A DNA stretch of 64,000 nucleotides, from NCBI GenBank assembly GCA_009733575.1, contig ML769701.1, positions 1 to 64,000 on the forward strand, read 5' to 3'. Below the pieces are notes generated by a model. That model was not told where the DNA came from and searched no databases. It saw only the letters and a list, made by a program, of their open reading frames with translations. Below are positions 3,776-37,274 of the stretch, piece by piece (the stretch's first letter is position 1; the number at the start of each line of letters is the position of its first letter). The stretch is from Gymnopus androsaceus JB14 (taxonomy: Eukaryota; Basidiomycota; Agaricomycetes; Agaricales; Omphalotaceae). The translations under genes and the position numbers were made by a program.

Positions 3776-4234
3776 GTAAGCAGTTTGGCGCAAGTTTCAT
3801 ATTCTGAGTCCATCTCACAAGATATGTATTAGCATGCTACTCATTACCATCAATGGGAAGTTGCTCGCAACCAGGAATGAAATGCACCGTTTGTCGAGCA
3901 TCTGATGGTGTTGAGTGCTGCTGTGGTATCTCAGTGGACCGCGGCGGGGAGGGTTTTTTAGTGTATATTCTTGCATGAAGGCATTGAATCTGGTTCATTG
4001 GTTTGCATTCCTACAATCCCGAATCCCGGGCTTTCTCATACATACTGTACATATATTGCCGCTTGAAAATGTTAAATTACCTGTGTAGGCTTGCATGTAA
4101 ACGTCTGGTTCAACGAAGTATCTTACTCTTCTTCGAAATATATAACCAGAAGTTTTCAACGTGTATGATAATTATGTACGGTGCTCGACGTGCACCATTC
4201 CAATTATATGCTTGACAAGAAAGAGAAGACAACT

Positions 4235-4725
4235 CGCCCACGATGTCTTCTATCTGAGTTCCTATGTTACAACTTGGACCCCAGCCTCCTACTCCAGATC
4301 ATAAAGCGACTAGCTGCTTCGACACGCCATCCGATTTCTGCCAGTCAGTCGAGAATACTAGAGAAAAAAAGGTGAGCATATAAATCTCCGATTAAATTCA
4401 TCAGAGTCTTACTTTACTTGCCGCGTTCATGCATGTGAGCAGCGTATTGGTCCCGGCAAATGCAGCATACAAGATGCTAGAAAATTTTCAGAAAATAATA
4501 TGTAGTGCCCAAATAGCTTCTTACCATAGTATAGACCCCGGCTTGCATATCCTTCATGCGTTCAAGGAAAGCATCTTGCTCTTTCTTGGTGCATCAAACT
4601 CGGCTTGGTACGCTGCCAACTTGGAAGGCCTGTGATAAAGTACAAGCCCCACATGCTCAACTTCAAAGGCTGCATGACGATTGAGCCAATTTTGGCTCGG
4701 TACTGGAATCTGTGGAAAAAATTAA
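4235..4725 (-). pseudogene. F-box family 3' fragment, cut off by the Ngaro element
   Basis: The minus-strand sequence 4550-4720 matches the C-terminal exon of the family (QAEFDAL...E.DAFLERMKD pattern) seen in copies C, D and E. The stretch 4240-4360 matches the next exon (LxEIGWR-like). It runs opposite to copy A and stops where Ngaro repeat A1 begins at 4726. The 5' half is missing on this side. It may have belonged to copy B (32660-33511) beyond the insertion, but both pieces carry a similar GAGCCxAATTTT stretch, so they may be separate genes. Confidence 0.5.
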
Positions 4726-5018
4726 TTGAATTTAAAAAATATGTTTACAAAAGTCTAATCAACGAGGTAAGAGAACCTAGCTTCTCTTCTCACTCTCTAC
4801 TCACTGATGGTCAGTGTACGCTCCGCGCGCCTCAGACTCAGGTCTCCTTTCCATTGGTGAAGCCCTAGTCAGTCAGGTACGCTCTGTGCGCTTGCAGGTC
4901 GTCTGCCCTTTTCTGACTCAGGTGCTCAGCTCTGCAGCCAATCATCTTATGTCTTACATTCTCTTGTTCCTTTTGATATTTATTGCGTAGAGAGTTTGGG
5001 AGTCAGCACCCTTTCTCA
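4726..5018 (+). repeat. Ngaro split direct repeat A1
   Basis: About 290 bp beginning TTGAATTTAAAAAATATG, repeated as A2 at 30584-30880. I count about 13 transitions and one transversion between A1 and A2. It forms the left terminus of the element and probably carries its promoter. Confidence 0.8.
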
Positions 5019-5770
5019 ATCGTGCTTCTAGCTCCAAAGTCAAACTCTCGGAGTCACTTGAGAAGACTCGAACTATCCTTGCAAACCTCGCCCGAGAACC
5101 GAAGTATGCACAATCTACCATACAATCCCATCTTCTCATCAGATGATTGGGATGACATTGTTACTGGGAAACCAGCGCATTTCGACCACATCTTCTCATC
5201 CATGCATGCCACCACTCCCATAGAACACCAGACTCAAAAGGTTGGTGAAGTTGAGCTCAAGTTTGGGCCGCCAGTTGCTGGTAAGAAAGTAGCAACTCAG
5301 GAGACTGGCAGATTGTCTTTGCCAAATACACCAAAGCACTCATCTTTGTTTTCCCACATTGCACCGACAAACTTCAAAAGTACAGCGAGCATATCATTCG
5401 ACTCTTCGGAGCACTTCCAGAAGTTGATCACCACAAAGTCCTTGACTATGACAAAGCCATCAGATATTGAGTCTCACAAACTCATCAGTATGAACTCACC
5501 AATTTTGGGGAATTCCAGGACCTCTTCATGTACTGGATTTAAGCCCCATCTTCCAAGAGTCGCGAGTCTCCCCAGTCCAACAAGTCCAACAAGAACAAGC
5601 AGCGAGAGCCGTGTAAACAATACAATGAAGGAAGGTGCCCCAACTCTGCTCAGTCATGCAGATATGCCCATATCTGTGGCAAGTGTTGAAAAAACAATCA
5701 TGCTGCAAGCAATTGTACGAACTGAGCGGGGGTCCCATCATCCTTACTATGCTTGTTCACTTATTTGGGA
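4983..5770 (+). pseudogene. Ngaro gag-like protein with CCCH zinc finger (frameshifted)
   Basis: The N-terminal part (from about 5100) contains IFSSDDWDDIVTGKPAHFDH and IEHQTQKVGEVELKFG, typical of the first ORF of Agaricomycete DIRS-like elements. The reading frame shifts after about 5300. Around 5620-5710 another frame gives a CCCH finger (CKQYNEGRCPNSAQSCRYAH) followed by a CCHC-like knuckle (CGKC-stop-KNNHAASNC). The TGA at 5687-5689 replaces the expected Trp, a G-to-A change. An uninterrupted 285-codon frame spans 4983-5840, but its second half is out of the correct frame. Confidence 0.65.
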
Positions 5771-5849
5771 TAGCGTTGGACAACCCACGGAGAGAATGGT
5801 TTTGGTGGATACCACAGTGTATATGTCTTCCTTGCCTTGACCTCCTGCG

Positions 5850-6050
5850 AACGAGGTCTTGAATGAAGTTGCATTGAATACTATCAAAAATAATCCACAT
5901 CTTTTCGGTATTACCACTCCTATCAACATTGATTGTTTCGAAATTCTTCTGCGCTCGCACCCAAACCAGCCTCTAGTCCAATCTGTGTGTACAGGCTTGC
6001 GACAAGGCTTCTGGCCTCAAGCTTACATTGACAATCCAGATGATATGCCG
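5850..6050 (+). pseudogene. Ngaro RT ORF, N-terminal segment
   Basis: The sequence LNEVALNTIKNNPHLFGITT, then INIDCFEILLRSHPNQPL and GLRQGFWPQAYIDNPDD, is the region that precedes the reverse transcriptase in Agaricomycete DIRS-like elements. It breaks off near 6050, where unrelated GC-richer sequence begins. The matching continuation starts near 8099 (IPVVLDCSCELRDPKHLEFA). Confidence 0.65.
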
Positions 6051-8098
6051 ATTTTTCGGCTAAAGCTGAAACTGTACAGAATTGATAATCCTAGATTCTG
6101 TATTATACTCAATATGGTTATACCGAGAACTATAGTGAGCCCGAGCTGATAGTTGAAGTCTATTGAGAGTCTATTGTACTCTAGAGATTGCAGAGTGATG
6201 GTACACGTTAATGGTATCTCACTTAACTTTGTGAATGCATCTCGTTCCAAGTCCTATGCATTGTATGGTGTAGCAAGTCAAGCTCGGCGGATACCGAGTT
6301 GATGAGCAAGGCTATTCCGAGCCCACATATAATTATTACTAGGCTAGACAATCAAAAGACATACCCGAGGGATTGAAGTTTCCGAGGCAGCACTTGGTGC
6401 AGCCCAACGAGTTGGTTATACAAAATTTACAATGTTACTCTGCCGAGATGAAAACTCTTGACCAGATGAAAGCTTGCCTAGGCAATCTCGTCGCAGAATG
6501 TCCGGTAACTCCGGCCCGGAGCTGCCGCGATGAAGGGAAACACTCCCGCGATGTCATAAGTCTCTTGACCGAGATGATAAAAGCAACATGGATGACAGAA
6601 TCATCTAGGCGAGCTAAACTCTCCAAGACCAAATGTTGTACTAGCTGGATGCCCGAGGCTCCGTTAGGACTCCGAGGCAAGTGTAATGGATGGGGTATTT
6701 TTGGGTTGCGCATTGCTAGAGGGTGCCGAGGTATACCTGCCGCGGCATCACCAACGCGGCCACCTGATCAACCTCATCGCAACCACTCTTAGAGCAAGGA
6801 ATGACTAGGAATAATTCCTGTCCGAGCTTCAGTGTTGTTCCGAGACCCATGTGCTACAAGGCATCTAGGCTTGAGTCCACACGGAACTAGGCATAATGTC
6901 TAGCTCGCTATTGGCAAGGCAAAAATGGATATACTTCCGAGGGCTGTTCATGGAATGTTTCGAACACCATAGAACTTCACCGAGTCATAAATTTGGAGGA
7001 CCTGCACAGTTTCCGAGGCAAAAGAAAGTGACTCGAGTTCATCTAGGACCAAATTCCAAGCATTGCCATTCCGAGTTATGAATTTCCCAAGATTAGGTGT
7101 GCCGAGATGATTTATTGAGGAAGATTATTTATTATTTTACATTTATGGACATGTCTCGATCTCTTTCATATTATTTCTTTGTTTTAGTATTTTTCCGAGA
7201 TGTACCAGTATATAAGGGTAGCTACATTCTACGTGGCAATCCAAGTTAGACTTGATACCTGAAACGCATTTCTATCTTAGGACCTGTAGTGATTCGTACA
7301 CGCTCAGACGCGTCTGCATCGTCCTCTACAACCTTTGAAACGGGTGGCCTTCTTGTAACCTCGATAATACTGAGGCTGTTCATTCTACTTCCCGGCTATT
7401 AAGTCGAGCATTCCTGGTTTTCATCTCGAAGAGAGGTCACATCAGTCTTAGGACCGCAGGTGGAGCCTAACGTGCACACCTCGACGAGCCCGTTGTTAAT
7501 TAGGAAAGGTCTTGGACCCAACTGTCGGCTTGGTCTAGTTTTAGGGAGGAAGCTTCTCGGAGTGTTACCTAGCTTTACCAACAGATTCTACCCCTTGCCC
7601 GCTCTTCGCTGAGTGTGTTAAAAACGCCTACTCGAGTGACTTGCGCGGCGGTCGTATAAGCTTGTTAGGTAACTCGCGGGAATCCCTGAGAGTTGGAGTA
7701 TCATTGCGCGGCGACGTAAAGGCTCCCGAGATACGCAAAGTCGTTTGTTGAGTCGGCGTACTTGACCCGTGCTTTGGTGTTTCACCGCGGATACGCAAAG
7801 TCGTTTGTTGAGTCGGCGTACTTGACCCGTGCTTTGGTGTTTGCTTTCCCCTCGATTAGTTCAGCGCGTCGTCGTACGTTAGTTGGCTTTTCAAAACCTC
7901 CCTCCAAATATAAAACCTTGTTCATTGCGCACTATCTGTGTCAACTGTCAAGTGCTTTTCTCTTCGAATCAATTAGTAGTCGAGGGAACCTTTGACAACC
8001 TCCTTCCTCGCATTAAATTAAACCTTTTGGATTATATCTGATTGGGGTGATTGTTGTTTGGTTGGTTTTCATACCCAGCACATAGCTAACTCATCACA
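6051..8098. mobile_element. ~2.05-kb unidentified insertion within the Ngaro RT ORF
   Basis: This block separates two halves of the RT ORF that would otherwise be continuous. It is rich in CCGAG motifs, unlike its surroundings. It has a TATA-like stretch (GTATATAAGG near 7211) and no convincing ORF. It may be a solo LTR or a non-autonomous element. I could not define termini or a target duplication; the flanks share at most a short ATA. The boundaries are approximate. Confidence 0.45.
7731..7842. repeat. Tandem duplication with 60-bp period
   Basis: A 52-bp stretch beginning ATACGCAAAGTCGTTTGTTG occurs at 7731-7782 and again, identically, at 7791-7842. Period is 60 bp. It lies inside the 2-kb insertion and looks recent. 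Confidence 0.85.
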
Positions 8099-9442
8099 GA
8101 AATACCTGTCGTTCTTGATTGTTCTTGTGAGCTTCGCGATCCGAAACACCTGGAATTTGCTCGTGAGCAGAGGGCCAAGGAGATTACCAAACATTGTTTC
8201 TCACCCACATTTCCAACACTCTTACCAGGGATGCAATGTGTTCCTGTCATTGTAGCACCAAAACCTCACTCCAACAAATTTTGTCTTGCGGTAGACCATA
8301 GTGCAGAACCTTTTCCGTTGAACTTGTTCATCAATCACAGTGATGTCTGGATCAAGATGGATGACTTACATGATTTAGGGGCCATACTTCTACATGTCTG
8401 TCGCGTATACGGGCGGCACAGGAGGTTGGTCTTATTCAAGTCAGATGTCTCCGCTGCCTATTGATGTCTTCCTATGGATCCGAGATGGCAAATAAAGCAA
8501 GTAGTGGGGTTCGGAGATGGGTTTAATGTCAACAAGTGCAATAATTTTGGCAGTCAAGATGGAGGTGGTCTGTGGGGAACATTCATGGGTTTGGTGCTCT
8601 GGATTTTGATCTATGTCAAGTTGCTCGCAGACTTGCTCGCCTACATCAATGACAATTTTAGTTGGGAATTTGGAGATAATATCACATTCTATGCACCATA
8701 CAATGACTATTACCCCACAAAACAGACAAGGTTGCTAGAGTGTTGGGATGAGCTCGGTATTCCGCATGACAAACCCAAGCAGCTTTGGGGCCCAAGTCTC
8801 CTAATTGTTGGTTTCAAGGTTGACCCAAATACAATGACCATTACCATGCCACTTGAAGCTCGGTCAGACTTGCTTGAAGAAATCCAGAGGTTTGCTGGTG
8901 TTGGCAAGCATTGGACGCTGAAAGAATATCAGCATCTAGGCGGTTGGATTAATTGGTCATTAAATGTCTACCCTCTTCTTCACCCAGGCCTTTTGGCTTT
9001 ATATGAGAAAATGGCAGGGAAGAGTAGGCTGAATGACCAAATCTGGACAAATAAAGCAGTCATTTGGGAGCTCCTTTGGTTTGCTGAAAAGGTCGAGATA
9101 TTGGATGGCATGAGGATGCTGGATAATGAAGAGTGGGGTGTGGAAGAAGCAGATTTAGTTTTGTATTGTGATGCGTGTCCGGCAGGCTTGGGATTTTGGT
9201 TGTGTTTGGACGGCAAGGCCCTAGGTTACCAGTGCATGATCCCCGATGATGCCACACAACCCATCTTTTACTTTGAAGCACTCACCGTTGTATCCACCAT
9301 CCTCTATGCCATTGAGCTTCCTTCTGTCCACCGTGTTTTCATTTTCACCAATAACACAAACACAGTGGACATGTTTAATTCTTTAAAGGTGAAACAAATT
9401 TACAACCCCCTTCTTCTCACTGCCGTTGACCACGCTATTTGA
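8099..9442 (+). pseudogene. Ngaro reverse transcriptase / RNase H
   Basis: After the insertion the RT resumes (EFAREQRAKEITKH, LLPGMQCVPVIVAPKPHSN, KSDVSAAY). An in-frame TGA at 8462-8464 fits CGA-to-TGA in the family motif AYRCLP. The palm then continues (MDPRWQIKQVVGFGDG...). The catalytic box reads YINDNFS where the family has Y-[IV]-D-D, so the first catalytic Asp is Asn (a GAT-to-AAT change). The RNase H-like part follows (LYCDACPAGLGFWL, FTNNTNTVDMFNSLK). This segment would copy the element RNA to DNA in a functional element; here it is inactive. Its 3' part from 9271 is repeated at 17845 by assembly error. Confidence 0.75.
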
Positions 9443-9662
9443 AGCAATGTCCAATTTCATGTTGGCCATATTCCAGGGGAAGAGAACAGCATTGCTGACA
9501 CTCTTTCATGTTTCGATTATACATGGATCTCTGAGCTTGCACCCTCAATGGAAATTTTTAGTTTTACACCCCCTCAATTGGTGCTGGGGGCTGAAAAATT
9601 ATGAACTTTCCACCTCCCTCCTCCAGACAGCTGGTTCATGAGGGGTCTGGAGTTGGGAACAC

Positions 9663-10385
9663 TTGCTGCATGAGTGTAATATTGCGCTTGGCAGCGTACT
9701 CGAACCTTCATCTTTGTCTTCTTACACCTCCACGGTACAATCCTATGTTACCTTTTGCCGAAACCATGACTTCCCCATTGATCCCACAACCAACACCCTT
9801 TCCTTCTACATAACTTACATGTGCCACCATATCAAACTGAAATCCATCTCCAGTTATCTATCAGGGATTTGCAACCAACTCAAGGTTTTCTACCCTGATA
9901 TATGTCAAAACTGCACTCATCCAATTGTTAAATGCACACTCAAAGGTTGCAGGAAGATACACAAATCTATCGCCTCGAGGAAATGCCCGCTTCAGCATAC
10001 GGAAATCACCGAGGTTTTTAACAAACTTCATTCTTCCTCTTCCTTCAATGACCTCCTATTTCTTGCCCTACTATTCATTGGTTTTTTTGCACTCATGTGG
10101 TTGGGAGAATTGGTCTTTCCCGACAAACTTGAACTTCAGGATTTTGGGAAGGTGATTATGCGGGCATCTTTCAAGGGCGATGACAAGCATATCGAGTTTA
10201 ACTTGCCCACTCACAAAGCAGATCGTACTTTTGAGGGGAATAGGATTCTGATCAAGGCTACAGGTGACAGGGATGACCTGGTGAGGATTGCTCAGAGTTA
10301 TGTCCATGAACGAGACCGTCGCTTCCCGGGGTTACCGCATTCATGGGTCCGCTCTGATGGATCCGTTCCGACTCGTTCTTGGTTT
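9663..10385 (+). pseudogene. Ngaro tyrosine recombinase, N-terminal two thirds
   Basis: The frame encodes a phage-integrase-like protein: an N-terminal SAM-like region (SSLSSYTSTVQSYVTFCRNH, TYMCHHIKLKSISSYLSGI) and a catalytic core start (ALLFIGFFALMWLGELVFPD, the usual first-Arg region 'RxGEL' reading WLGEL). It runs to DGSVPTRSWF, where the LINE is inserted. The remainder lies at 30188-30411 in the same frame. The enzyme would insert a circular cDNA by recombination. Between RT/RNase H and this ORF (9443-9662) the linker is frameshifted. Confidence 0.75.
10372..10385 (+). repeat. LINE target-site duplication, left copy
   Basis: CTCGTTCTTGGTTT, identical to 30188-30201. It abuts the A-rich LINE tail. 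A degraded-assembly repeat of this copy is at 18944-18957. Confidence 0.85.
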
Positions 10386-10431
10386 TTATTTTTTATTTTT
10401 TATTTTTATTTTATTTTATTTTATTTTGTAT
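10386..10431 (-). repeat. LINE 3' A-rich tail
   Basis: On the plus strand this is T-rich, made of ATTTT/ATTTTTT units. Read on the minus strand it is an (AAAAT)n-like tail next to the target duplication, as expected for target-primed reverse transcription. It is repeated with errors at 18958-19003. Confidence 0.8.
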
Positions 10432-10692
10432 CTTTGTTTATTGCCCGTTGTCCCGAGGGATATGGTAGGCATTACTCTACATCTTGTATATACAAGAAGG
10501 TGTCTGTCCGTATATAGTCCTAATCAAAGTGGTATTGCTATGTCAAAGTGCGTTGAGACTATGAGTGTCTCGCAGCAAAGGGGTTGCTGTGGGGATTGTA
10601 TACTCTGTGTGGAGTGGCTGTAAAGTAAGTATTTTGTGTGTGTTGCGTGGGGCGTTTGGAGTGTATAGTAGAGGGACAGGTAGAGTAAGAAC

Positions 10693-10723
<31 letters not shown>

Positions 10724-10931
10724 GAGGTGGAGTCTGTTTGGGTGACCTTCAGTGCATCCCATCTTCGTCGTCATTGTCTGCAAGCGGTGGAAGGGTACCG
10801 AAAGTGTTTCTGAACCTCCCTGTGTCGTTGATGAACTGGAAGAGTGGTCTCAGCGAGTCTTTGCTGTTCAATAGCTTCTCACTATTCATGTTCCTGGATC
10901 CAACTTCGGCTCTCAAACAGGCTCGGGCTCT

Positions 10932-11861
10932 TCAGTGCGCTGGGCATTGTAGGAGGAAATGGTAGACTGTTTCTGGCTCTCGTTTGCATGCCGGGCAATG
11001 CGGTGAGTCGATCTTTCTTATGCAGTGGAGATGGGCGTAAAGATAGCAGTGGCCGGTGCGTAGGTGTACAAGTATGCTGATATGAGGTTTTACGAGGCCT
11101 TTGGTGATGGTTTGGAATTTTTGTGCTACCGTTGTTGCATCTCCCTTTGCCACTTTCTGGAATCTGGTGAATCTGGGGGATTGGCGGAACATGTCGTCTC
11201 GGGTTTTGTTGAGGTCTTTCGCGAACATCTTCCGGGCAGCTGAGCTACTCATCGGAAAGGATTTTCGGAAGGTATGGGGCAGTAGCTGTTTCGGGCTCAA
11301 CCCGCGTACAGCTGCTTCCTTGGCCTCCTCATCTGCTGCCTCGTTCCCTTCGACGCCTTCATGTCCCGGTACCCATCCCACCATGATCATTAGATTGGGG
11401 TGATGTTGTTTAAGTCGAGAGTATAGAGAGTGAAAGTGGTCCATTAAGTAGTGCGCTGGTCCGGATGCCATTGAGCCCGTTGCTGAGATTGCCGCTGTGT
11501 TGTCTATCCATAGGGAGACCGTCGAGACACTTCGTTCCTTCTTCAGCAGCTCTAGACCCAGAGACGGGCCCACCGACTCCCCTTTGAACACCTCGTGCTC
11601 CGTTTCCTTGCCTAACTGCATCTGAAGGGATGATATCCTCCTTCCTCCCTTGTACAGCACTGCTGAGCTTCCCACCATTCCTTTGATTCCTGATCCATCC
11701 GTAAAGAGTTGGTGCTCTGCGTCATCCTCCTCAATCTGCTTCAGAGCATCTTCCTTCCCTTCCCACTGACGAATCCGTATCTCTGATTCCCAGTCTGCTT
11801 GCTTCCTCACTGCCTGTCTCTTCTCCATCTTCTTCGGGTTTAGGTTGTACATGTTCATCAA
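10932..11861 (-). CDS. LINE ORF2 C-terminal part: RNase H and Cys-rich tail
   Basis: The open frame encodes 309 residues. RNase H signatures are FTDGSGIKGMVGSSAVLY (first Asp), EVFKGESVGP (Glu), LWIDNTAAISA (Asp) and VGWVPGHEGVEGNEAADEEA (His/Asp). The C-terminus has CPACKREPETVYHFLLQCP, the zinc-knuckle-like tail common at the end of fungal LINE ORF2. It digests the RNA strand during retrotransposition. Upstream it is separated from the RT by the satellite element (11924-16461). The segment itself is uninterrupted, in contrast to the error-ridden repeat at 19113-20331. Confidence 0.75.
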   Translation of the reverse strand: MMNMYNLNPKKMEKRQAVRKQADWESEIRIRQWEGKEDALKQIEEDDAEHQLFTDGSGIKGMVGSSAVLYKGGRRISSLQMQLGKETEHEVFKGESVGPSLGLELLKKERSVSTVSLWIDNTAAISATGSMASGPAHYLMDHFHSLYSRLKQHHPNLMIMVGWVPGHEGVEGNEAADEEAKEAAVRGLSPKQLLPHTFRKSFPMSSSAARKMFAKDLNKTRDDMFRQSPRFTRFQKVAKGDATTVAQKFQTITKGLVKPHISILVHLRTGHCYLYAHLHCIRKIDSPHCPACKREPETVYHFLLQCPAH

Positions 11862-11952
11862 GTCGTGGAGTGGCGAGAAGTGTGATTTAATGAACTTTCT
11901 GCTAGCTGCGTCCTGGGTGTGTTCACTTCAGGCTGCCCCAATTTATATCTTC

Positions 11953-12060
11953 TTAGATAGTCCAAAGTGTAACAATCCAGTAACTAATATGATCAAAATC
12001 CACAGGAAATCCAGGGCCCTGGAATCCAGGGGCCCCGCCTGGAATCCATACACCCTGCCT
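11953..12060. repeat. Subterminal inverted repeat, left arm
   Basis: It starts TTAGATAGTCCAAAGTGTAA and is the reverse complement of 16335-16432. The left arm carries a 14-bp internal duplication (GGCCCTGGAATCCAG-like), absent from the right arm. Confidence 0.85.
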
Positions 12061-12925
12061 GGATTCCATGCATGTTGCATGGATTCCATGCCCTAGGGAA
12101 TAGTAGTGTATGGATTCCAGGCATGTTGCATGGAATCCATGCACTAGTAAAAATAGTAGTGTATGGATTCCATGCATGTTGCATGGAATCCATGCACTAG
12201 TAAAAATAGTGGTGTATGGATTCCAGGCATGTTGCATGGAATCCATGCACTAGAAAAAATAGTAGTGTATGGATTCCAGGCATGTCGCATGGAATCCATG
12301 AACTAGTAAAAATAGTAGTGTATGGATTCCAGGCATGTTGCATGGAATCCATGCACTAGTAAAAATAGTAGTGTATGGATTCCATGCATGTTGCATGGAT
12401 TCCATGCACTAGTAAAAATAGTAGTGTATGGATTCCAGGCATGTTGCATGGAATCCATGCACTAGTAAAAATAGTAGTGTATGGATTCCAGGCATGTTGC
12501 ATGGATTCCATGCACTAGTCAAAATAGTAGTGTATGGATTCCAGGCATGTCGCATGGAATCCATGCACTGGTAAAAATAGTAGCATATGGATTCCAGGCA
12601 TGTCGCATGGAATCCATGCACTGGTAAAAATAGTAGTGTATGGATTCCAGGCATGTTGCATGGAATCCATGCACTGGTAAAAATAGTAGTGTATGGATTC
12701 CAGGCATGTTGCATGGAATCCATGCACTGGTAAAAATAGTAGTGTATGGATTCCAGGCATGTTGCATGGAATCCATGCACTGGTAAAAATAGTAGTGTAT
12801 GGATTCCAGGCATGTTGCATGGAATCCATGCACTAGTAAAAATAGTAGCGTATGGATTCCAGGCATGTTGCATGGATTCCATGCACTAGTAAAAATAGTA
12901 GTGTATGGATTCCATGCATCTCACA
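12060..12925 (-). repeat. 53-bp satellite array 1 (about 16 units, minus orientation)
   Basis: Tandem 53-bp units built around the palindrome GCATGGAATCCATGC, with GGAATCCATACACTACTA and ACTAGT motifs. Units alternate between CTAGT and CTGGT variants and between TTGCATG and TCGCATG. Because 53 is not divisible by 3 and the unit lacks stops in this strand, long but meaningless open frames run through it. It is in opposite orientation to the array at 14221-16345. Confidence 0.9.
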
Positions 12926-13565
12926 TTAGTACTAGTTCGACCATTAGATTAGTTACTAGTCCAAGTTATCAGTACTAGTACCACCATTAGGTTAGTTACT
13001 AGTTCGAGTTATTAGTACTAGTACAACCATTAGGTTAGTTACTAGTATGACTTATTGGTACTAGTACAACCATTAGATTCGTTACTAGTATGAGTTATTC
13101 GTACTAGTACCACCATTAGGTTAGTTACTAGTTCGATTTATTAGTACCATTATAAGCATTAGATTCGTTACTAGTACAACTTATTAGTACTAGTACCACC
13201 ATTAGATTAGTTACTAGTCCGAGTTATTAGTACTAGTACAACCATTAGGTAGTTACTAGTATGACTTATTGGTACTGGTACAACCATTAGATTAGTTACT
13301 AGTCCGAGTTATTCATACTAGTACCACCATTAGGTTAGTTACTAGTTCGAGTTATTAGTACCATTATAAGCATTAGATTCATTACTAGTACAACTTATTA
13401 GTACTAGTTCAACCATTAGATTAGTTACTAGTCCGAGTTATTTACTAGTACCACCATTAGATTAGTTACTAGTCCGAGTTATCAGTACTAGTACCACCAT
13501 TAGGTTAGTTACTAGTACGACTTATTGGTACCAGTACAACCATTAGCTTCCTTACTAGTATGACC
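12926..13565. repeat. 43-bp satellite array (about 15 units)
   Basis: Degenerate units like CCACCATTAGGTTAGTTACT plus AGTTCGAGTTATTAGTACTAGTA, period near 43 bp, rich in ACTAGT and TAGTACTA palindromes. It lies in the centre of the element between the two 53-bp arrays. Confidence 0.8.
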
Positions 13566-13574
13566 TTATGCCCA

Positions 13575-13930
13575 CCCTCCCGGTGCTTATGGGCGCTTAT
13601 TTATCCAAAAAATGTCGGGAATCAGGCTTGATAAATCCTTCAAAAATCATCAAAGATTATCAAAATATTTCGGCATTATTGTTCCCCCCCAGTGTATATG
13701 GGCACATATGGGTGCTCATTTTACTGCAGAACATTGGAAATTGAGCTTGATAAATTCTGGAAAAATCGTGAAAATAGTGAAAATATTTGGGCATTGTTAT
13801 CCCGCCCACCAGCACTTTTGGGTGTGTATTTTCCTGCCAAATAACGGGAATGGAGCTTGATAAATCTCGGAAAAAGGATAAAAAATCATGAAAATATTTA
13901 GGGATTGTTTTTCCACCTCCCACTGATTAT
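13575..13930. repeat. Three diverged ~115-bp repeats
   Basis: Three copies contain GCTTGATAAAT (near 13625, 13745 and 13855), followed by an A-rich stretch with AAAATATTT and then a C-rich run. Spacing is 110-120 bp. No coding function is evident. Confidence 0.65.
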
Positions 13931-13944
13931 GGCACCTCATGTCC

Positions 13945-14190
13945 GAATAAGGTCATGTAACACATGTGACACTGTCACACTACATATATGGTATACCTTA
14001 ACTGTAACTCTCCTTCTGGAATTCATCCTCATTGCAATCAAAAGTGTAATTTGTAGTTTGTGTGACAGTGTCACATGCAGGCTGATGGGATCAGCAGAGG
14101 TAGGTTGCTGGGTGTAGATGAGAAAGTCATCACTGTAACTATCAATCGCTATTTCACAAATTTCAATTTGTACTGTGTGACAGTGTCACG
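13945..14190. repeat. Three 13-bp GTGACA-N-TGTCAC palindromes
   Basis: Perfect 6-bp inverted arms around one base occur at 13966-13978, 14062-14074 and 14177-14189. Multiple spaced palindromes near the array could be protein-binding sites, for instance subterminal transposase sites. That role is inferred from position only. Confidence 0.6.
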
Positions 14191-14220
14191 TGACTATTAC
14201 TATACTTCGCATGCACTACT

Positions 14221-16345
14221 ATATTTACTAGTGCATGGAATCCATGCGACATGCCTGGGAATCCATACACTACTATTTTTACTAGTGCATGGATTCCATG
14301 CAACATGCCTGGAATCCATACACTACTATTTTTCCTAGTGCATGGAATCCATGCAACATGCCTGGAATCCATACACTACTATTTTTACCAGTGCATGGAT
14401 TCCATGCGACATGCCTGGAATCCATACACTACTATTTTTACCAGTGCATGGAATCCATGCAACATGCCTGGAATCCATACACTACTATTTTTACTAGTGC
14501 ATGGATTCCATGCAACATGCCTGGAATCCATACACTACTATTTTTACCAGTGCATGGATTCCATGCAACATGCCTGGAATCCATACACTACTATTTTTAC
14601 CAGTGCATGGATTCCATGCAACATGCCTGGAATCCATACACTACTATTTTTACTAGTGCATGGATTCCATGCAACATGCCTGGAATCCATACACTACTAT
14701 TTTTACTAGTGCATGGAATCCATGCAACATGCCTGGAATCCATACACTACTATTTTACTAGTGCATGGAATCCATGCAACATGCCTGGAATCCATACACT
14801 ACTATTTTTACTAGTGCATGGAATCCATGCAACATGCCTGGAATCCATACACTACTATTTTTACTAGTGCATGGAATCCATGCAACATGCCTGGAATCCA
14901 TACACTACTATTTTTACTAGTGCATGGATTCCATGCAACATGCCTGGAATCCATACACTACTATTTTTACTAGTGTATGGATTCCATACACTACTATTTT
15001 TACTAGTGCATGGATTCCATGCAACATGCTGGAATCCATACACTACTATTTTTACCAGTGCATGGATTCCATGCGAACATGCCTGGAATCCATACACTAC
15101 TATTTTTACCAGTGCATGGATTCCATGCAACATGCCTGGAATCCATACACTACTATTTTTACCAGTGCATGGATTCCATGCAACATGCCTGGAATCCATA
15201 CACTACTATTTTTACTAGTGCATGGATTCCATGCAACATGCCTGGAATCCATACACTACTATTTTTACTAGTGCATGGAATCCATGCAACATGCCTGGAA
15301 TCCATACACTACTATTTTTACTAGTGCATGGAATCCATGCAACATGCCTGGAATCCATACACTACTATTTTTACTAGTGCATGGAATCCATGCAACATGC
15401 CTGGAATCCATACACTACTATTTTTACCAGTGCATGGATTCCATGCAACATGCCTGGAATCCATACACTACTATTTTTACTAGTGCATGGATTCCATGCA
15501 ACATGCCTGGAATCCATACACTACTATTTTACTAGTGCATGGAATCCATGCAACATGCCTGGAATCCATACACTACTATTTTTACTAGTGCATGGAATCC
15601 ATGCAACATGCCTGGAATCCATACACTACTATTTTTACTAGTGCATGGAATCCATGCAACATGCCTGGAATCCATACACTACTATTTTTACCAGTGCATG
15701 GATTCCATGCAACATGCCTGGAATCCATACACTACTATTTTTACTAGTGCATGGATTCCATGCAACATGCCTGGAATCCATACACTACTATTTTACTAGT
15801 GCATGGAATCCATGCAACATGCCTGGAATCCATACACTACTATTTTTACTAGTGCATGGAATCCATGCAACATGCCTGGAATCCATACACTACTATTTTT
15901 ACTAGTGCATGGAATCCATGCAACATGCCTGGAATCCATACACTACTATTTTTACCAGTGCATGGATTCCATGCAACATGCCTGGAATCCATACACTACT
16001 ATTTTTACTAGTGCATGGATTCCATGCAACATGCCTGGAATCCATACACTACTATTTTTACTAGTGTATGGATTCCATACACTACTATTTTTACTAGTGC
16101 ATGGATTCCATGCAACATGCCTGGAATCCATACACTACTATTTTTACCAGTGCATGGATCCATGTGACATGCTGGAATCCATACACTACTATTTTTACCA
16201 GTGCATGGATTCCATGCAACATGCATGGAATCCATACACTACTATTTTTACCAGTGCATGGATTCCATGCAACATGCCTGGAATCCATACACTACTATTT
16301 TTACCAGTGCATGGATTCCATGCAACATGCCTGGAATCCAGGTGG
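14221..16345 (+). repeat. 53-bp satellite array 2 (about 40 units, plus orientation)
   Basis: Tandem 53-bp units (GCATGGAATCCATGCAACAT, then GCCTGGAATCCATACACTAC, then TATTTTTACTAGT) with very high identity. Occasional units differ in length (for example the 32-bp unit near 14970-15002 and 16060-16090). Higher-order repetition is visible: a block of about five units (264 bp) recurs near 15270, 15539 and 15803. Same family as array 1 but inverted. Confidence 0.9.
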
Positions 16346-16432
16346 GGTGTATGGATTCCAGGCGGGGCCCCTGGATTTCCTGTGGATTTTGATCATATTA
16401 GTTACTGGATTGTTACACTTTGGACTATCTAA
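16335..16432. repeat. Subterminal inverted repeat, right arm
   Basis: It ends GGATTGTTACACTTTGGACT then ATCTAA and is complementary to 11953-12060. The same sequence recurs at 38806-38904 without the rest of the element. Confidence 0.85.
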
Positions 16433-16502
16433 CTAGTTACTTTTCCTGGTAGACTGGAATGGTGTGTTTGTTGAGTGGGTGTATGGTCGGTAGGGTAGCT
16501 AT

Positions 16503-17819
16503 TCAGACAGCTGCTCTTTGGTGGGTCATGTCTATGGCTAGCGGCATGGGCAGGAGATTTGAGTGGATGTCGAGGAGGTTGGTTGGAGTGGATGAAAGAG
16601 CTCCTGTGATCATGAGCGAGACTTGACATTGGATAGAGGTGAGTTTTTGGATGATGTTGTGTCTAGCTTCGCGTTTCAGCTGTTTCTGTCCCTTGTTTGC
16701 CCCTGGGTGTCGTTGTGGAACAAGAAAGATGTCAGAGGCATACAACATCCTGCTGCGTAGCATCGCAATATACCATTCCCGTGCGTACTCGGAGGTGGCT
16801 CCTGCCATCACCCTTGATAACCGTCTGAATTGTGCGAGCCAAGCCTGTCCTTTGGCTATCACCGCTGAACCCTGTTCTTTGAATCGTAACTCGCTGTCGA
16901 GTATCACCCCTACTAGCTTTATTCCTTCCTTTCTCTTCACCAACTTTCCTCCAACCTTGATATCTGTTCCTCGAAGTGGAATTGTCTTTTTGGGTTGGAC
17001 TGGATGGCAAGTGCGTTTCCTGGTGTAGTCGGCTAGTTGAAACTTCTCCAGGCCAAAGGAACAGTTATGCTCCCTGGCCCAGTCTAGGACTCCCCCTGGA
17101 TTGTTCATCAGTTGTTCGAGTCGGGTGTGGGTTTCTGTGAATGAGTCGCCTTGTGCGACGAGTTTTGCATCGTCCATGAAGAGGAGGCTGAGATCTTTTG
17201 TTTTTTGATTAATGAGTTTGAGTAGGCCTGCATTGTAGAAGAGGTATTGGACGACTGCAAATGGGTCTCCTTGGTCTAGACCTCCTGGCGGTTTGAATGG
17301 TTCAGAGGTGAAGTCTTCAAATAGAATGCGGGTTTTCCGGCTTGCATATCTCCTTTTTATCCAGTCAACTATCTCCTTTGGACACTGGCCATCCTCATCT
17401 CATGGTATAGCATTTCCAGGTCCACGCTAGGGTAAAGCTCCCTTAACATCCAGTGCCAGCGCTGAGACCACCTTGCCCTTCCTCCATGCCTTCTTAACCG
17501 TTGAAATGAACAGGTGGAGTGAGTCGGTTGTACTTCACCCTGGTCTTCCACCAAACTGCATTTACGGTAGAAGGCCATGTAGCTCTGCTCCCCTGACCGT
17601 GATATCTGCAACAACACTGTTGGAGGGACAACCCCAACCGCTGGACAACACTAAGGGCCTCCACGTTCCTGGTAGCTGATAGTTCGGTTTTCCTGGTTTA
17701 CGAGCGACAAAGGTCTCGTTAGTTTGCCAATCATTGGGATAGTGCTGGGAATATAGTGTGGGAATGGTGAACCTGCTCGGAGAAGGGGGCCAAAAAGGGG
17801 GGCAATCAGCTCAAGCGAA
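16503..17819 (-). pseudogene. LINE ORF2 reverse transcriptase, copy at the left contig end
   Basis: It encodes the RT palm end and thumb (FMDDAKLVAQGDS; EFVQ-like thumb; ITGALSSTPTNLLDIHSNLL). It duplicates 25104-26398. Toward 17819 it accumulates small insertions relative to the other copy (for example GGGTAAAGCTCCC against GGGTAAGCTCCC), consistent with poor consensus at a contig end. Treat it as a redundant copy. Confidence 0.7.
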
Positions 17820-17844
17820 NNNNNNNNNNNNNNNNNNNNNNNNN
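17820..17844. other. Assembly gap (25 N)
   Basis: A run of 25 N separates two overlapping contig ends: the sequence after the gap restarts at the equivalent of position 9271. Confidence 0.99.
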
Positions 17845-18957
17845 TTTGAAGCACTCACCGTTGTATCCACCATCCTCTATGCCATTGAGCTTCCTTCGTC
17901 CACCGTGTTTTCATTTTCACCAATAACACAAACACAGTGGACATGTTTTAATTCTTTAAAGGTGAAACAAATTACCAACCCCCTTCTTCTCACTTGCCGT
18001 TGAACCACGCTATTTGAAGCAATGTCCAATTTCATGTTGGCCATATTCCAGGGAAGAGAACAGCATTGCTGACACTCTTTCATGTTTCGATTATACATGG
18101 ATCTCTGAGCTTGCACCTCAATGGAAATTTTTAGTTTTACACCCCCTCAATTGGTGCTGGGGGCTGAAAAATATGAACTTTCCACCTCCCTCCTCCAGAC
18201 AGCTGGTTCATGAGGGTCTGGGAGTTGGGAACACTTGCTGCATGGAGTGTAATATTGCGCTTGGCAGCGTACTCGAACCTTCATCTTTGTCTTCTTACAC
18301 CTCCACGGTACAATCCTATGTTACCTTTTGCCGAAACCATGACTTCCCCATTGATCCCACAACCAACACCCTTCCTTCTACATTAACTTACATGTGCCAC
18401 CATATCAAACTGAAATCCATCTCCAGTTATCTATCAGGGATTGCAACCAACTCAAGGTTTTCTACCCTGTAGTATGTCAAAACTGCCACTATCCAATTGC
18501 TTAAATGCACACTCAAAGGATTGCAGGAAGTACACAAATCTATCGCCTCGAGGGAAATGCCCGCTTCAGCATACGGAAATCACCGAGGTTTTTAACAAAC
18601 TTCATTCTTCCTCTTCCTTCAATGACCTCCTTTTCTTGCCCTACTATTCATGGTTTTTTGCACTCATGTGGTTGGGAGAATTGGTCCTTTCCCGACAAAC
18701 TTGAACTTCAGGATTTTGGGAAGGCTGATTATGCGGGCATCTTTCAAGGGCGATGACAAGCATATCGAGTTTAACTTGGCCCACTCACAAAGCAGATCGT
18801 ACTTTTGAGGGGAATAGGATTCTGATCAAGGCTACAGGTGACAGGGGATGACCTTGTGAGGATTGCTCAGAGTTATGTCCATGAACGAGACCGTCGCTCC
18901 GGGGTTTAGCATCATGGGTCCGCTCTGGATGGATCCGTTCCGACTCGTTCTTGGTTT
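17845..18957 (+). pseudogene. Repeat copy of Ngaro RNase H end and tyrosine recombinase
   Basis: Corresponds to 9271-10385 with many one-base indels, so the frame is broken about every 100-200 bp. It ends with the LINE target duplication copy at 18944-18957. Confidence 0.7.
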
Positions 18958-20512
18958 TTATTTTTTATTTTTTATTTTTATTTTATTTTTATTTTTTTTT
19001 TGATCTTTGTTTATTGCCCGTTGTCCCGGGGGATCATGGCTAGGCATTACTCTACATCTTGTATATACAAGAAGGTGTCTTCCGTATATAGTCCTAATTC
19101 AAAGTGGTATTGCTATGTCATAGTGCGTTGAGACTTATGAGTGTCTCGCAGCAAAGGGTTGCTGTGGGGATTGTAATACTCTGTGGTGGAGTGGCTGTAA
19201 AGTAAGTATTTTGTTGTTGTTGCGTGGGCGTTTGGGAGTGTATAGTAGGAGGGACAGGTAGGAGTAAAACAAAAAAAAAAAAAAAAAAAAAAGAAGAAAA
19301 GGAGGTGGAGGTCTGTTTGGGTGACCTTCATGCATCCCATCTTCGTCGTCATTGTCTGCAAGCGGTGGAACGGTACCGAAAGTGTTTCTGAACCCCTGTG
19401 TCGTTGATGAACTGGGAAGAGTGGTCTCAGCGAGTCTTTGCTGTTCAATAGCTTCTCACTATTCATGTTCCTGGATCCAACTTCGGGCTCTCAAACAGGG
19501 CTCGGGCTCTTCAGTGTGCGCTGGGCATTGTTAGGAGGAAATGGTAGACTGTTTCTGGGCTCTCGTTGCCATGCCGGGGCAATTGCGGTGAGTCGTTTTT
19601 CTTATGCCAGTGGAGATGGGCGTAAAGATAGCAGTGGGCCGGTGCGTAGGTGTACAAGTTATGCTGATATGAGGTTTTACGGAGGCCTTTGGTGATGGTT
19701 GGAATTTTTTTGCTACCGTTGTTGCATCTCCCTTTGCGCACTTTCTGGAATCTGGTGAATCTGGGGGATTGGCGGAACATGTCGTCTTCGGGTTTTGTGG
19801 AGGTCTTTCGCGAACATTCTTCCGGGCAGCTGAGCTACTCATCGGGAAAGGATTTTCGGAAGGTATGGGGCAGTAGCTGTTTCGGGCTCAACCCGCGTAC
19901 AGCTGCTTCCTTGGCCTCCTCATCTGCTGCCTCGTTCCCTTCGACGCCCTTCATGTCCCGGTACCCATCCCACCATGATCATTAGATTGGGGCTGATGTT
20001 GTTTAAGTCGAGGAGTATAGAGACAGTAAGTGGTCATTACAGTAGTGCGCTGCGTCCGGATGCCATTGAGCCCGTTGCTGAGATTGCCGCTGTGTTGTCT
20101 ATCCATAGGGAAGACCGTCGAGACACTTCGTTCCTTCTTCAGCAGCTCTAGACCCAGAGACGGGCCCACCGACTCCCCTTTGAACACCTCGTGCTCCGTT
20201 TCCTTGCCTAACTGCATCTGAAGGGGATGATATCTCCTTCCTCCCCTTGTACAGCACTGCTGAGCTTCCCACCATTCCTTTGATTCCTGATCCATCCGTA
20301 AAGAGTTGGTGCTCTGCGTCATCCTCCTCAATCTGCTTCAGAGCATCTTCCTTCCCTTTCCCACTGACGAATCCGTATCTCTGATTCCCAGTCTGCTTGC
20401 TTCCTCACTGCCTGTCTCTTCTCCATCTTCTTCGGGTTTAGGTTGTACATGTTCATCAAGTCGTGGAGTGGCGAGAAGGTGATTTAATGAACTTTCTGCT
20501 AGCTGCGTCCTG
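18958..20512 (-). pseudogene. Repeat copy of LINE 3' end and RNase H
   Basis: Corresponds to 10386-11923. The RNase H frame, open in the first copy, is split here into fragments by homopolymer-type indels (for example GGGG for GGG). Probably sequencing error rather than mutation. Confidence 0.65.
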
Positions 20513-20520
20513 GGTGTGTT

Positions 20521-23500
20521 CACTTCAGGCTGCCCCAATTTATACTTCTTAGATAGTCCAAAGTTTAACAATCCAGTAACTAATATGATCAAAACCACAG
20601 GAAATCCAGGGCCCTGGAATCCAGGGGCCCCGCCTGGAATCCATACACCCTGCCTGGATTCCATGCATGTTGCATGGATTCCATGCCCTAGGGAATAGTA
20701 GGTGTATGGATCCAGCATGTTGCATGGAATCCATGCACTAGTAAAAATAGTAGTGTATGGATTCCATGCATGTTGCATGGAATCCATGCACTAGTAAAAA
20801 TAGTGGTGTATGGATCCAGGCATGTTGCATGGAATCCATGCACTAGAAAAAATAGTAGTGTATGGATTCCAGCATGTCGCCATGGAACCATGAACTAGTA
20901 AAAATAGTAGTGTATGGATTCCAGGCATGTTGCATGGAATCCATGCACTAGTAAAAATAGTAGTGTATGGATTCCATGCATGTTGCATGGATTCCAGCAC
21001 TAGTAAAAATAGAGTGTTATGGATTCCAGGCATGTTGCATGGATCCATGCCACTAGTAAAAAAATAGTAGGTGTATGGATTCCAGGCATGTTGCATGGAT
21101 TCCATGCACTAGTCAAAAATAGTAGTGTATGGATTCCAGGCATGTCGCATGGAATCCATGCACTTGGTAAAATAGTAGCATATGGATTCCAGGCATGTCG
21201 CATGGAATCCATGCACTGGTAAAATAGTAGTGTATGGATTCCAGGCATGTTGCATGGAATCCATGCACTGGTAAAAATAGTTAGTGTATGGATTCCAGGC
21301 ATGTTGCATGGAATCCATGCACTGGTAAAAATAGTAGTGTATGGATTCCAGGCATGTTGCATGGAATCCATGCACTGGTAAAAATAGTAGTGTATGGATT
21401 CCAGGCATGTTGCATGGAATCCATGCACTAGTAAAAATAGTAGCGTATGGATTCCAGGCATGTTGCATGGATTCCATGCACTAGTAAAAATAGTAGTGTA
21501 TGGATTCCATGCATCTCACATTAGTACTAGTTCGACCATTAGATTAGTTACTAGTCCAAGTTATCAGTACTAGTACCACCATTAGGTTAGTTACTAGTTC
21601 GAGTTATTAGTACTAGTACAACCATTAGGTTAGTTACTAGTATGACTTATTGGTACTAGTACAACCATTAGATTCGTTACTAGTATGGAGTTATTCGTAC
21701 TAGTACCACCATTAGGTTAGTTACTAGTTCGATTTATTAGTACCATTATAAGCATTAGATTCGTTACTAGTACAACTTATTAGTACTAGTACCACCATTA
21801 GATTAGTTACTAGTCCGAGTTATTAGTACTAGTACAACCATTAGGTAGTTACTAGTATGACTTATTGGTACTGGTACAACCATTAGATTAGTTACTAGTC
21901 CGAGTTATTCATACTAGTACCACCATTAGGTTAGTTACTAGTTCGAGTTATTAGTACCATTATAAGCATTAGATTCATTACTAGTACAACTTATTAGTAC
22001 TAGTTCAACCATTAGATTAGTTACTAGTCCGAGTTATTTACTAGTACCACCATTAGATTAGTTACTAGTCCGAGTTATCAGTACTAGTACCACCATTAGG
22101 TTAGTTACTAGTACGACTTATTGGTACCAGTACAACCATTAGCTTCCTTACTAGTATGACCTTATGCCCACCCTCCCGGTGCTTATGGGCGCTTATTTAT
22201 CCAAAAAAATGTCGGGAATCAGGCTTGATAAATCCTTCAAAAATCATCAAAGATTATCAAAATATTTCGGCATTATTGTTCCCCCCAGTGTATATGGGCA
22301 CATATGGGTGCTCATTTTACTGCAGAACATTGGAAATTGAGCTTGATAAATTCTGGAAAAATCGTGAAAATAGTGAAAATATTTGGGCATTGTTATCCCG
22401 CCCACCAGCACTTTTGGGTGTGTATTTTCCTGCCAAATAACGGGAATGGAGCTTGATAAATCTCGGAAAAAGGATAAAAAATCATGAAAATATTTAGGGA
22501 TTGTTTTTCCACCTCCCACTGATTATGGCACCTCATGTCCGAATAAGGTCATGTAACACATGTGACACTGTCACACTACATATATGGTATACCTTAACTG
22601 TAACTCTCCTTCTGGAATTCATCCTCATTGCAATCAAAAGTGTAATTTGTAGTTTGTGTGACAGTGTCACATGCAGGCTGATGGGATCAGCAGAGGTAGG
22701 TTGCTGGGTGTAGATGAGAAAGTCATCACTGTAACTATCAATCGCTATTTCACAAATTTCAATTTGTACTGTGTGACAGTGTCACGTGACTATTACTATA
22801 CTTCGCATGCACTACTATATTTACTAGTGCATGGAATCCATGCGACATGCCTGGGAATCCATACACTACTATTTTTTACTAGTGCATGGATTCCATGCAA
22901 CATGCCTGGAATCCATACACTACTATTTTTCCTAGTGCATGGAATCCATGCAACATGCCTGGAATCCATACACTACTATTTTTACCAGTGCATGGATTCC
23001 ATGCGACATGCCTGGAATCCATACACTACTATTTTTACCAGTGCATGGAATCCATGCAACATGCCTGGAATCCATACACTACTATTTTTACTAGTGCATG
23101 GATTCCATGCAACATGCCTGGAATCCATACACTACTATTTTTACCAGTGCATGGATTCCATGCAACATGCCTGGAATCCATACACTACTATTTTTACCAG
23201 TGCATGGATTCCATGAAACATGCCTGGAATCCATACACTACTATTTTTACTAGTGCATGGATTCCATGCAACATGCCTGGAATCCATACACTACTATTTT
23301 TACTTAGTGCATGGAATCCATGCAACATGCCTGGAATCCATACACTACTATTTTTTACTAGTGCATGGAATCCATGCAACATGCTGGAATCCATACACTA
23401 CTATTTTTACTAGTGCATGGAATCCATGCAACATGCCTGGAATCCATACACTACTATTTTTACTAGTGCATGGAATCCATGCAACATGCCTGGAATCCAT

Positions 23501-25062
23501 ACACTACTATTTTTACTAGTGCATGGATTCCATGCAACATGCCTGGAATCCATACACTACTTATTTTACTAGTGTATGGATTCATACACTACTATTTTTA
23601 CTAGTGCATGGATTCCATGCAACATGCCTGGAATCCATACACTACTATTTTTACCAGTGCATGGATTCCATGTGACATGCCTGGAATCCATACACTACTA
23701 TTTTTACCAGTGCATGGATTCCATGCAACATGCCTGGAATCCATACACTACTATTTTTACCAGTGCATGGATTCCATGCAACATGCCTGGAATCCATACA
23801 CTACTATTTTTACTAGTGCATGGATTCCATGCAACATGCCTGGAATCCATACACTACTATTTTTACTAGTGCATGGAATCCATGCAACATGCCTGGAATC
23901 CATACACTACTATTTTTACTAGTGCATGGAATCCATGCAACATGCCTGGAATCCATACACTACTATTTTTACTAGTGCATGGAATCCATGCAACATGCCT
24001 GGAATCCATACACTACTATTTTTACCAGTGCATGGATTCCATGCAACATGCCTGGAATCCATACACTACTATTTTACTAGTGCATGGATTCCATGCAACA
24101 TGCCTGGAATCCATACACTACTATTTTTACTAGTGCATGGAATCCATGCAACATGCCTGGAATCCATACACTACTATTTTACTAGTGCATGGAATCCATG
24201 CAACATGCCTGGAATCCATACACTACTATTTTTACTAGTGCATGGAATCCATGCAACATGCCTGGAATCCATACACTACTATTTTTACCAGTGCATGGAT
24301 TCCATGCAACATGCCTGGAATCCATACACTACTATTTTTACTAGTGCATGGATTCCATGCAACATGCCTGGAATCCATACACTACTATTTTTACTAGTGC
24401 ATGGAATCCATGCAACATGCCTGGAATCCATACACTACTATTTTTACTAGTGCATGGAATCCATGCAACATGCCTGGAATCCATACACTACTATTTTTAC
24501 TAGTGCATGGAATCCATGCAACATGCCTGGAATCCATACACTACTATTTTTACCAGTGCATGGATTCCATGCAACATGCCTGGAATCCATACACTACTAT
24601 TTTTACTAGTGCATGGATTCCATGCAACATGCCTGGAATCCATACACTACTATTTTTACTAGTGTATGGATTCCATACACTACTATTTTTACTAGTGCAT
24701 GGATTCCATGCAACATGCCTGGAATCCATACACTACTATTTTTACCAGTGCATGGATTCCATGTGACATGCCTGGAATCCATACACTACTATTTTTACCA
24801 GTGCATGGATTCCATGCAACATGCATGGAATCCATACACTACTATTTTTACCAGTGCATGGATTCCATGCAAACATGCCTGGAATCCATACACTACTATT
24901 TTTACCAGTGCATGGATTCCATGCAACATGCCTGGAATCCAGGTGGGGTGTATGGATTCCAGGCGGGGCCCCTGGATTTCCTGTGGATTTTGATCATATT
25001 AGTTACTGGATTGTTACACTTTGGACTATCTAACTAGTTACTTTTCCTGGTAGACTGGAATG
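20521..25062. mobile_element. Second copy of the satellite-packed element (assembly repeat)
   Basis: Same ends, same flanking GTGTGTT and same internal order as 11924-16461: 53-bp array about 20650-21515, 43-bp array 21516-22155, ~115-bp repeats 22165-22520, palindromes, 53-bp array 22812-24945. Total length differs by only a few bases. Confidence 0.75.
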
Positions 25063-25103
25063 GTGTGTTTGTTGAGTGGGTGTATGGTCGGTAGGGTAGC
25101 TAT

Positions 25104-34189: not shown

Positions 34190-34362
34190 ATGAGGATCTT
34201 GTTGGCCAGTTGAGGCTGCTATCAAACGACATGCTTCTGGGACTGGGAGGGCGTCTCCTCGTCTGGTTTAAGTGACACTGAGGGTGAGGTGGCTACACCA
34301 CTGGGTTATTCGGATTTCAAAGAAGATGATATTGGTGAACAGGATATGTTGAAGGAGAAGTA
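34190..34362 (+). pseudogene. Fragment related to 53297-53531
   Basis: It contains a short frame with GYSDFKEDDIGEQDM, resembling SSDFEEEDIIEQGYG at 53297-53531. The family is not identified. It ends at the CATCAG element beginning at 34363. Confidence 0.3.
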
Positions 34363-34550
34363 CATCAGCAAAAATGGTCTGGGCCTTGGATGACCTGAGG
34401 ATACCTAAGGACTACCTAGGTCTCCTAGGACACCCAGGACACCCAGGACACCTAGGTCTCCCAGGCTTTCATAAGTCCACCCCCTTATTCCTGGGCTTCT
34501 TGAAGGAATCCTGAGGGAGCCTGAGGGAACCTGAGGAAACCTGAGCCTAT
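34363..34550. mobile_element. CATCAG-family element (copy M4, TGGTCTGGGCC subtype)
   Basis: It begins CATCAGCAAAAATGGTCTGG, then CCTAGG/CCCAGG-type tandem words. The opposite terminus of this subtype (CCAGACCATTTTTGCTGATG) is seen at 48727-48746 and not here, so this copy is truncated or its right end is diverged. Confidence 0.5.
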
Positions 34551-34689
34551 TAATGTATGATATGACTTGTATAAATTTTTATTTACTTTAGTAAGTGTAC
34601 GCTGCAGGACTAACTTAAACAGGTACCTGCAGGTATACCTGTGGGTATCTGTGTTGACCTGCGATGCAGGTACCTGCGGGTTTGACCTG

Positions 34690-34790: not shown

Positions 34791-34799
34791 GATAAACCT

Positions 34800-37270: not shown

Positions 37271-37274
37271 TGTA

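Follow-up and report, generated by a model that had tools for sequence, protein, structure and literature searches.

A satellite-rich foldback element of Gymnopus androsaceus and its probable link to KDZ transposons

What kind of element consists almost wholly of short tandem repeats and moves as a unit, and which transposase would move it? The question is raised by a 4538-bp element at positions 11924-16461 of a 64,000-nucleotide stretch of the Gymnopus androsaceus JB14 genome (assembly GCA_009733575.1, contig ML769701.1, positions 1-64,000), called the window here. The element is probably a non-autonomous, foldback-like DNA transposon that is mobilised in trans by a KDZ transposase, most likely of the Kyakuja type, of larger relatives in the same genome. 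A preliminary description of the window had seen in it a carrier of satellite DNA, and the genome bears this out: the element is made almost entirely of short repeats and belongs to a repeated mobile family that disperses tandem arrays. The genome searched is an assembly of 83.3 Mb in 934 contigs; C-numbers denote contigs and L-numbers extracted loci.

Structure and insertion of the element

The borders first proposed for the element proved exact to the base. It starts with CACTTCAGG and finishes with the complement of CATTCCAG, between two copies of a 7-bp target-site duplication (TSD) in a long interspersed nuclear element (LINE). Its parts are as follows.

11917-11923 (no strand): left TSD, GTGTGTT; uninterrupted LINE copies exist for this site
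11924-16461 (+): probable non-autonomous KDZ-type foldback element, 4538 bp; its ends recur elsewhere in the genome
11924-11952 (+): 5'-type outer end, CACTTCAGGCTGCCCC...; 15 of 29 positions agree with the opposite end
11953-12059 (+): left inner inverted repeat, closing in TGGAWTCCA motifs 20 bp apart
12060-12919 (+): left 53-bp array, 16.3 units
12925-13560 (+): 43-bp array, 14.9 units
13561-13960 (+): middle block, weak repeats of about 110-119 bp
13966-14189 (no strand): three GTGACASTGTCAC palindromes, at 13966, 14062 and 14177
14210-16340 (-): right 53-bp array in reversed orientation, about 40 units as the sum over several listed pieces
16341-16432 (-): right inner inverted repeat
16433-16461 (-): 3'-type outer end, complement of CATTCCAGTCTACC...
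16462-16468 (no strand): right TSD, GTGTGTT

The anatomy is that of a foldback element, with long inverted arms built of tandem repeats. The arms are 97% complementary over 499 nt, which is not due to chance. The inverted 53-bp arrays of about 16 and 40 units, the central 43-bp array and the spaced palindromes of the preliminary description were all recovered, and two of its features need qualification. The inverted ends are near-perfect from base 30 on, but the outermost 29 bp agree at only 15 of 29 positions. The repeats of about 115 bp are present but weak, with best ungapped offsets of 110 and 119 at 42% and 39% identity; sister copies give local alignments at an offset of about 119 with 69-73% identity. 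No transposase gene was found within the element, where the open frames are repeat-coded only.

The sequences flanking the element clearly indicate insertion into a previously unbroken LINE. The host open reading frame (ORF) is split into two parts.

10932-11927 (-): RNase H part of the host LINE ORF2, interrupted
16503-17399 (-): reverse-transcriptase part of the host LINE ORF2, interrupted; the longer frame of the duplicate, 25104-26135, has an RVT_1 domain

When the LINE flanks were joined (315 bases), the genome gave 13 matches. Four are the window's own halves, which end at the site, and the remaining nine cross it uninterrupted. Two of these, C49:151558-151872 (88%) and C247:92925-93239 (87%), span the full 315 bases at equal length, as judged by alignment span, and this fits the prediction of a single 7-bp target. 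Uninterrupted copies of the LINE are thus present, and the element moved as a unit that interrupts the LINE cleanly. The duplication had been put at 7-8 bp. Seven bases (GTGTGTT) hold, but an eighth does not: when 19 perfect pairs were extended by one base, the left side agreed in 7 and the right side in 6, which is about chance.

The same ends are dispersed throughout the genome, as the preliminary reading required. The 42-bp inner part of the terminal inverted repeat (TIR) occurs at 188 sites (98+90), the 5'-type end at 165 (91+74) and the 3'-type end at 77 (34+43), each with at most three mismatches, while a reversed control of the inner TIR gave none. An older TIR variant has 66+55 exact sites. 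Of 22 end pairs on extracted loci, 19 are flanked by a TSD that is perfect over 7 bp and one (L059) agrees in 6 of 7 bases; when flanks were paired across copies as a control, only 2 of 460 combinations reached at least 6/7. Six further pairs include three perfect ones (C341, TTACTGG; C58, TCACCAT; C385, CAAGGGC), so that 22 of 28 pairs are perfect. C84, whose flank is identical to that of C385, probably represents one locus with it. With an apparent duplicate in the window at 20521 excluded, there are 21 independent insertions with a perfect TSD. No match to the TIR turned up when viral contigs were scanned.

The connection with KDZ transposons

The ends of the family and the genes found beside them point to KDZ transposons. 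Kyakuja, a KDZ group of Agaricomycotina (PMC12730594), resembles the family in its 7-bp TSD and CA..TG termini, and relatives of the window element contain a KDZ gene. A search of the genome for the KDZ domain gave 161 matches. One of these lies within a relative bounded by a TSD: the 17.3-kb segment C341:30541-47885 has a 5'-type end at 30541, a 3'-type end at 47885 and TTACTGG on both sides, and it contains a KDZ match at 34261-35161 in three pieces. Two further parts of this segment are each 93% like the KDZ gene of locus L047 (C368), with 32822-32957 corresponding to its last coding part and 36060-36467 to its 5' region. The L047 gene matches the KDZ domain at 8e-55 and CxC1 at 9.8e-10. 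A family end lies 1.6 kb upstream of it; over 106 bases this end and its TIR share 99% identity with those of the window element.

The repeats also adjoin the other side of the KDZ genes. At C368, C538 and C174 the KDZ 3' flank passes through degenerate units into an array (98-100% identical), and flanks that are 67-69% similar enter repeats at C482 and L054. At L055, L054 and C482 the array continues to the TIR and end, where the array of L055 contains a 638-N gap and the outer end of L054 is incomplete. Beside the family end and the diverged KDZ 3' flank of L054 there is an 855-aa open frame without a Pfam match (4107-6674, minus strand).

Several observations weigh against this reading. Two of the three KDZ pieces in C341 carry a stop codon, so the gene is possibly broken and the parent is a candidate; the gene may also be nested inside a foreign element. 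The same KDZ gene region as in L047 is found at L067 (C538) with upstream sequence unrelated to the TIR, and the join of TIR and KDZ gene at L047 is therefore a junction. The units of the KDZ-bearing copies are T-type (9/9 in L047, 1/1 in L055), as are those of L040 (28/28), L041 (23/23) and L057 (33/34), whereas 43 of 46 units in the window copy are G-type. Since the subtypes differ, it is the ends, the TIR and the motif that connect the window element with the KDZ copies. Family ends within 4 kb of KDZ loci point inward in 6 cases and outward in 5, with 0.33 expected for each. Because outward ends are enriched too, the members of the family appear to cluster, and end density alone was not used as proof. 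This test entered 34 of 39 KDZ matches (a gene matched in several pieces was counted once), 139 of 145 hAT-C matches and, among the matches listed, 200 of 309 TIR sites (100/188 + 100/121). Some end pairs have no TSD, namely L053 (1/7) and L064 (2/7) among the 22 pairs and, among the six further pairs, C438 (two pairings) and C482 (one). Finally, a C58 relative contains a hAT domain, as described below, and the Kyakuja of Laccaria differ from the window element. Two Laccaria families are described with a 7-bp TSD, CA..TG ends and a TET/JBP gene and without TIRs (PMC12730594), while the window element has a near-perfect inverted repeat that starts 29 bp inside. A genome search for TET/JBP, as a companion gene in KDZ elements, gave only one sub-threshold match, on C425. 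In view of the inverted repeat from base 30, the element is labelled KDZ-type and Kyakuja-like, not Kyakuja.

The preliminary description had proposed a hAT parent, and mobilisation by a hAT7-type transposase, which makes a 7-bp TSD, now appears improbable. Such hAT7 elements occur in rust fungi (PMC12730594), and in the mushroom Marasmius oreades hAT families are active and take gene-less partners along with them (PMC9674265). In the segment C58:35095-46709, which is bounded by family ends and the TSD TCACCAT, a hAT-C domain lies 0.57 kb inside the right end, and a hAT parent therefore keeps a small probability. However, hAT-C is not clearly enriched inside the ends. Of the 145 genome matches (139 entered, six second gene pieces omitted), 3 are placed inside and 5 outside at a distance of up to 4 kb from a family end, with 1.34 expected for each. 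On these counts, a single hAT in one relative fits chance nesting, and the hAT-C domain of C58 is likely a nested insertion. L066 (C87), which has the same TIR variant as C58, shows no match to hAT or any other transposase in six of its seven ORFs of at least 90 aa, and the TSD-bounded C341 relative carries a KDZ gene instead.

Other candidates were rejected. L047 is not an intact autonomous copy: its TIR and KDZ gene meet at the junction mentioned above, and a partial duplicate in inverted orientation makes up its left part. The pairs C482:13108-29945 and C438 are not whole elements, for want of a matching TSD. Plavaka has a 2-3-bp TSD and TGT..ACA or CATCA..TGATG ends (PMC12730594), and the family has a 7-bp TSD and CACTTCAG ends. 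A Plavaka transposase gene is present in the window at 44059-45675 on the minus strand (E 2.7e-74). L065 (C545) is not an autonomous copy; among its three scanned ORFs the longest is a Copia-type gag between repeats that resemble long terminal repeats. Helentrons lack a TSD and have rolling-circle ends, and the family has TSDs and inverted ends.

The repeat arrays and their possible origin

The 53-bp unit is organised around a 9-bp motif. The unit consists of two copies of TGGAWTCCA, which is palindromic except for W, at spacings of 20 and 33 bp. The motif occurs 114 times in the window copy, compared to none in the 47,500 bases of the window outside copies. Units with exact spacing number 219 forward and 224 reverse over 21 sequences, and in the 16 sequences with both directions the median forward unit lies left of the midpoint and the median reverse unit right of it. 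The eight fixed positions of the motif diverge by 1.4% (G-type) and 2.2% (T-type), compared to 4.7% and 9.1% for the non-anchor spacer, based on the spacer-anchored units retained (282 of 309 G-type, 68 of 87 T-type; low-identity units were removed before the count). At the W position, 696 of 700 sites have A or T.

A tentative explanation is that the arrays are amplified transposase-binding sites, selected for recruitment. The TGGAWTCCA motifs would be putative binding sites of the KDZ transposase, and their spacings of 20, 33 and 53 bp are close to two, three and five helical turns. Copies without a gene must be moved in trans, if they are moved at all, and those with extra motif sites may have recruited the enzyme of their relatives better. 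In such a competition the gene-less copies with longer arrays would have prevailed, with the docking motif multiplied through block duplication and the inverted arms kept alike inside each copy by exchange or conversion. The outcome would be a transposon end turned into a satellite that spreads by cut-and-paste.

A plainer account is that the arrays are ordinary satellites, with no role in transposition, that grew after insertion in an unremarkable miniature inverted-repeat transposable element. This is possible, though rather doubtful. It draws on the varying size of the arrays among copies in the assembly, on exact internal duplications of up to 532 bp in the window copy, and on the greater likeness of units within a copy (95.5% in the same arm, 95.6% between arms of one copy) than between copies (94.3%), a difference that none of 500 label shuffles equalled. 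These identities refer to units with exact 20/33 spacing, and W2, L062, L064 and L065 are excluded from the means. The likeness within copies and the internal duplication suggest that the arrays grow by block duplication and that the two arms behave as one pool. In contrast, 12 of the 13 G-type copies (window duplicate excluded) bear opposed units in both arms, the exception being L044 with a single arm. The motif is also better conserved than the spacers, and it is common to the ends and to the 3' flank of the KDZ gene. The preliminary view that the element disperses ready-made satellite DNA is accordingly half right: tandem arrays are dispersed, but the differences in size and the higher identity within copies indicate that they also change during or after spread.

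Very little speaks for the structure being largely an assembly artefact, but array lengths are affected. The second window copy and L044 resemble unmerged contig overlaps at 25-N gaps, and for 14 of the 200 inner-TIR sites entered the distance to a contig start is at most 700 bp, compared to 1.6 expected, with the interior running off the contig in all 14. One gap is in the window at 17820-17844, and positions 9272-17813 match 17845-26400 at 98%. The duplicate 8.6-kb block follows the gap directly, and the other block stops six bases short of it. Compared in 500-base bins, the blocks are free of substitutions in six bins, while the four bins that come after the first bin of the right-hand contig have 13-27 each; the array bins of the two blocks differ by up to 318 gap columns. 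On this layout the following feature is probably not a second insertion but one locus seen twice, in overlapping contigs that were left unmerged.

20521-25062 (+): apparent second copy, with the same site and TSD

At L044 flanks of 1.09 kb are 98.8% identical, and one element is present in two versions, the first 954 bp long and the other with a longer array. Together with the excess at contig starts, these overlaps make array lengths in the assembly unreliable. The 21 independent insertions with perfect TSDs and the uninterrupted LINE copies confine the doubt to these lengths. The family thus illustrates the breaks and distortions that such arrays cause in assemblies.

Similar elements have been described, mainly in animals. 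Galileo, of the P superfamily, and other foldbacks have long inverted arms with internal tandem repeats, and in Galileo these repeats were tested and hold extra transposase-binding sites (PMC3688188); its transposase belongs to a different superfamily, and binding in the window family is a proposal from sequence. Tetris of Drosophila virilis is likewise non-autonomous, with variable tandem repeats in inverted arms, a gene-less middle and a satellite link, but it has an 8-10-bp TSD and repeats of about 220 bp. A Mutator origin was proposed for it and its parent was not found (PMC4079207), whereas the window family has a candidate parent group. Cg_HINE elements, non-autonomous Helentrons of the Pacific oyster, also disperse satellite-like arrays (PMC7492417); their arrays are central, while the window family has TSDs, inverted ends and inverted arrays. 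The Tm1 Mutator/foldback elements of root-knot nematodes combine composite, variable inverted repeats with transposase-bearing relatives, but have a 9-bp TSD and a Mutator-type transposase (PMC3169594). No KDZ or fungal example of a satellite-array foldback was found in the titles and abstract openings surveyed. The element had been put forward as something undescribed. Within that literature the family is new, but satellite-carrying elements and tandem-repeat foldbacks as such are already known, and the probable KDZ parentage in a fungus is the new aspect.

These findings suggest that KDZ transposons of fungi give rise to foldback families. If the proposed mechanism is true, KDZ would be a foldback-forming superfamily and the arrays would act as a built-in titrator of transposase. 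A single genome holds a candidate group of parents, the derivative without a gene and repeat forms of intermediate kind, from a few 33-bp units in L065 through mixed 33/53-bp arrays beside KDZ genes to the long 53-bp arrays in the window. The step from transposon end to satellite should therefore be traceable.

Related copies and neighbouring features

A third element of the window is a rearranged relative.

34794-38904 (-): rearranged relative with a 3'-type end at 38904; 53-bp repeats and the foldback middle common to T-type copies

No left end was found for it, and other sequence intervenes between the shared parts. A different middle, which forms a long imperfect foldback of its own, is common to T-type elements (L041 2965-4475, L057 2611-4700, window 34794-35886). 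The right flank of this relative (38905-38911) is CATTTAA, which is also found in the 7 bases before the 5' end of L058 (C142). The coincidence may reflect a recombined or mis-joined insertion; the left flank of L058 has no match elsewhere in the window.

To the left of the host LINE parts, positions 8465-10517 (plus strand) contain a pair of ORFs that may belong to another retroelement. The first matches RVT_thumb weakly and the second has no match, and part of the pair is repeated in the duplicate block. Two loci elsewhere in the genome add to the variety of the family. L066 (C87:88373-96987), a relative of 8.6 kb, is bounded on each side by a 5'-type end and the TSD TACTCTA and contains 177-bp tandem repeats. 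At L057 (1441-7257) one copy is inserted into the 43-bp satellite of another, with the TSD AGTACTG.

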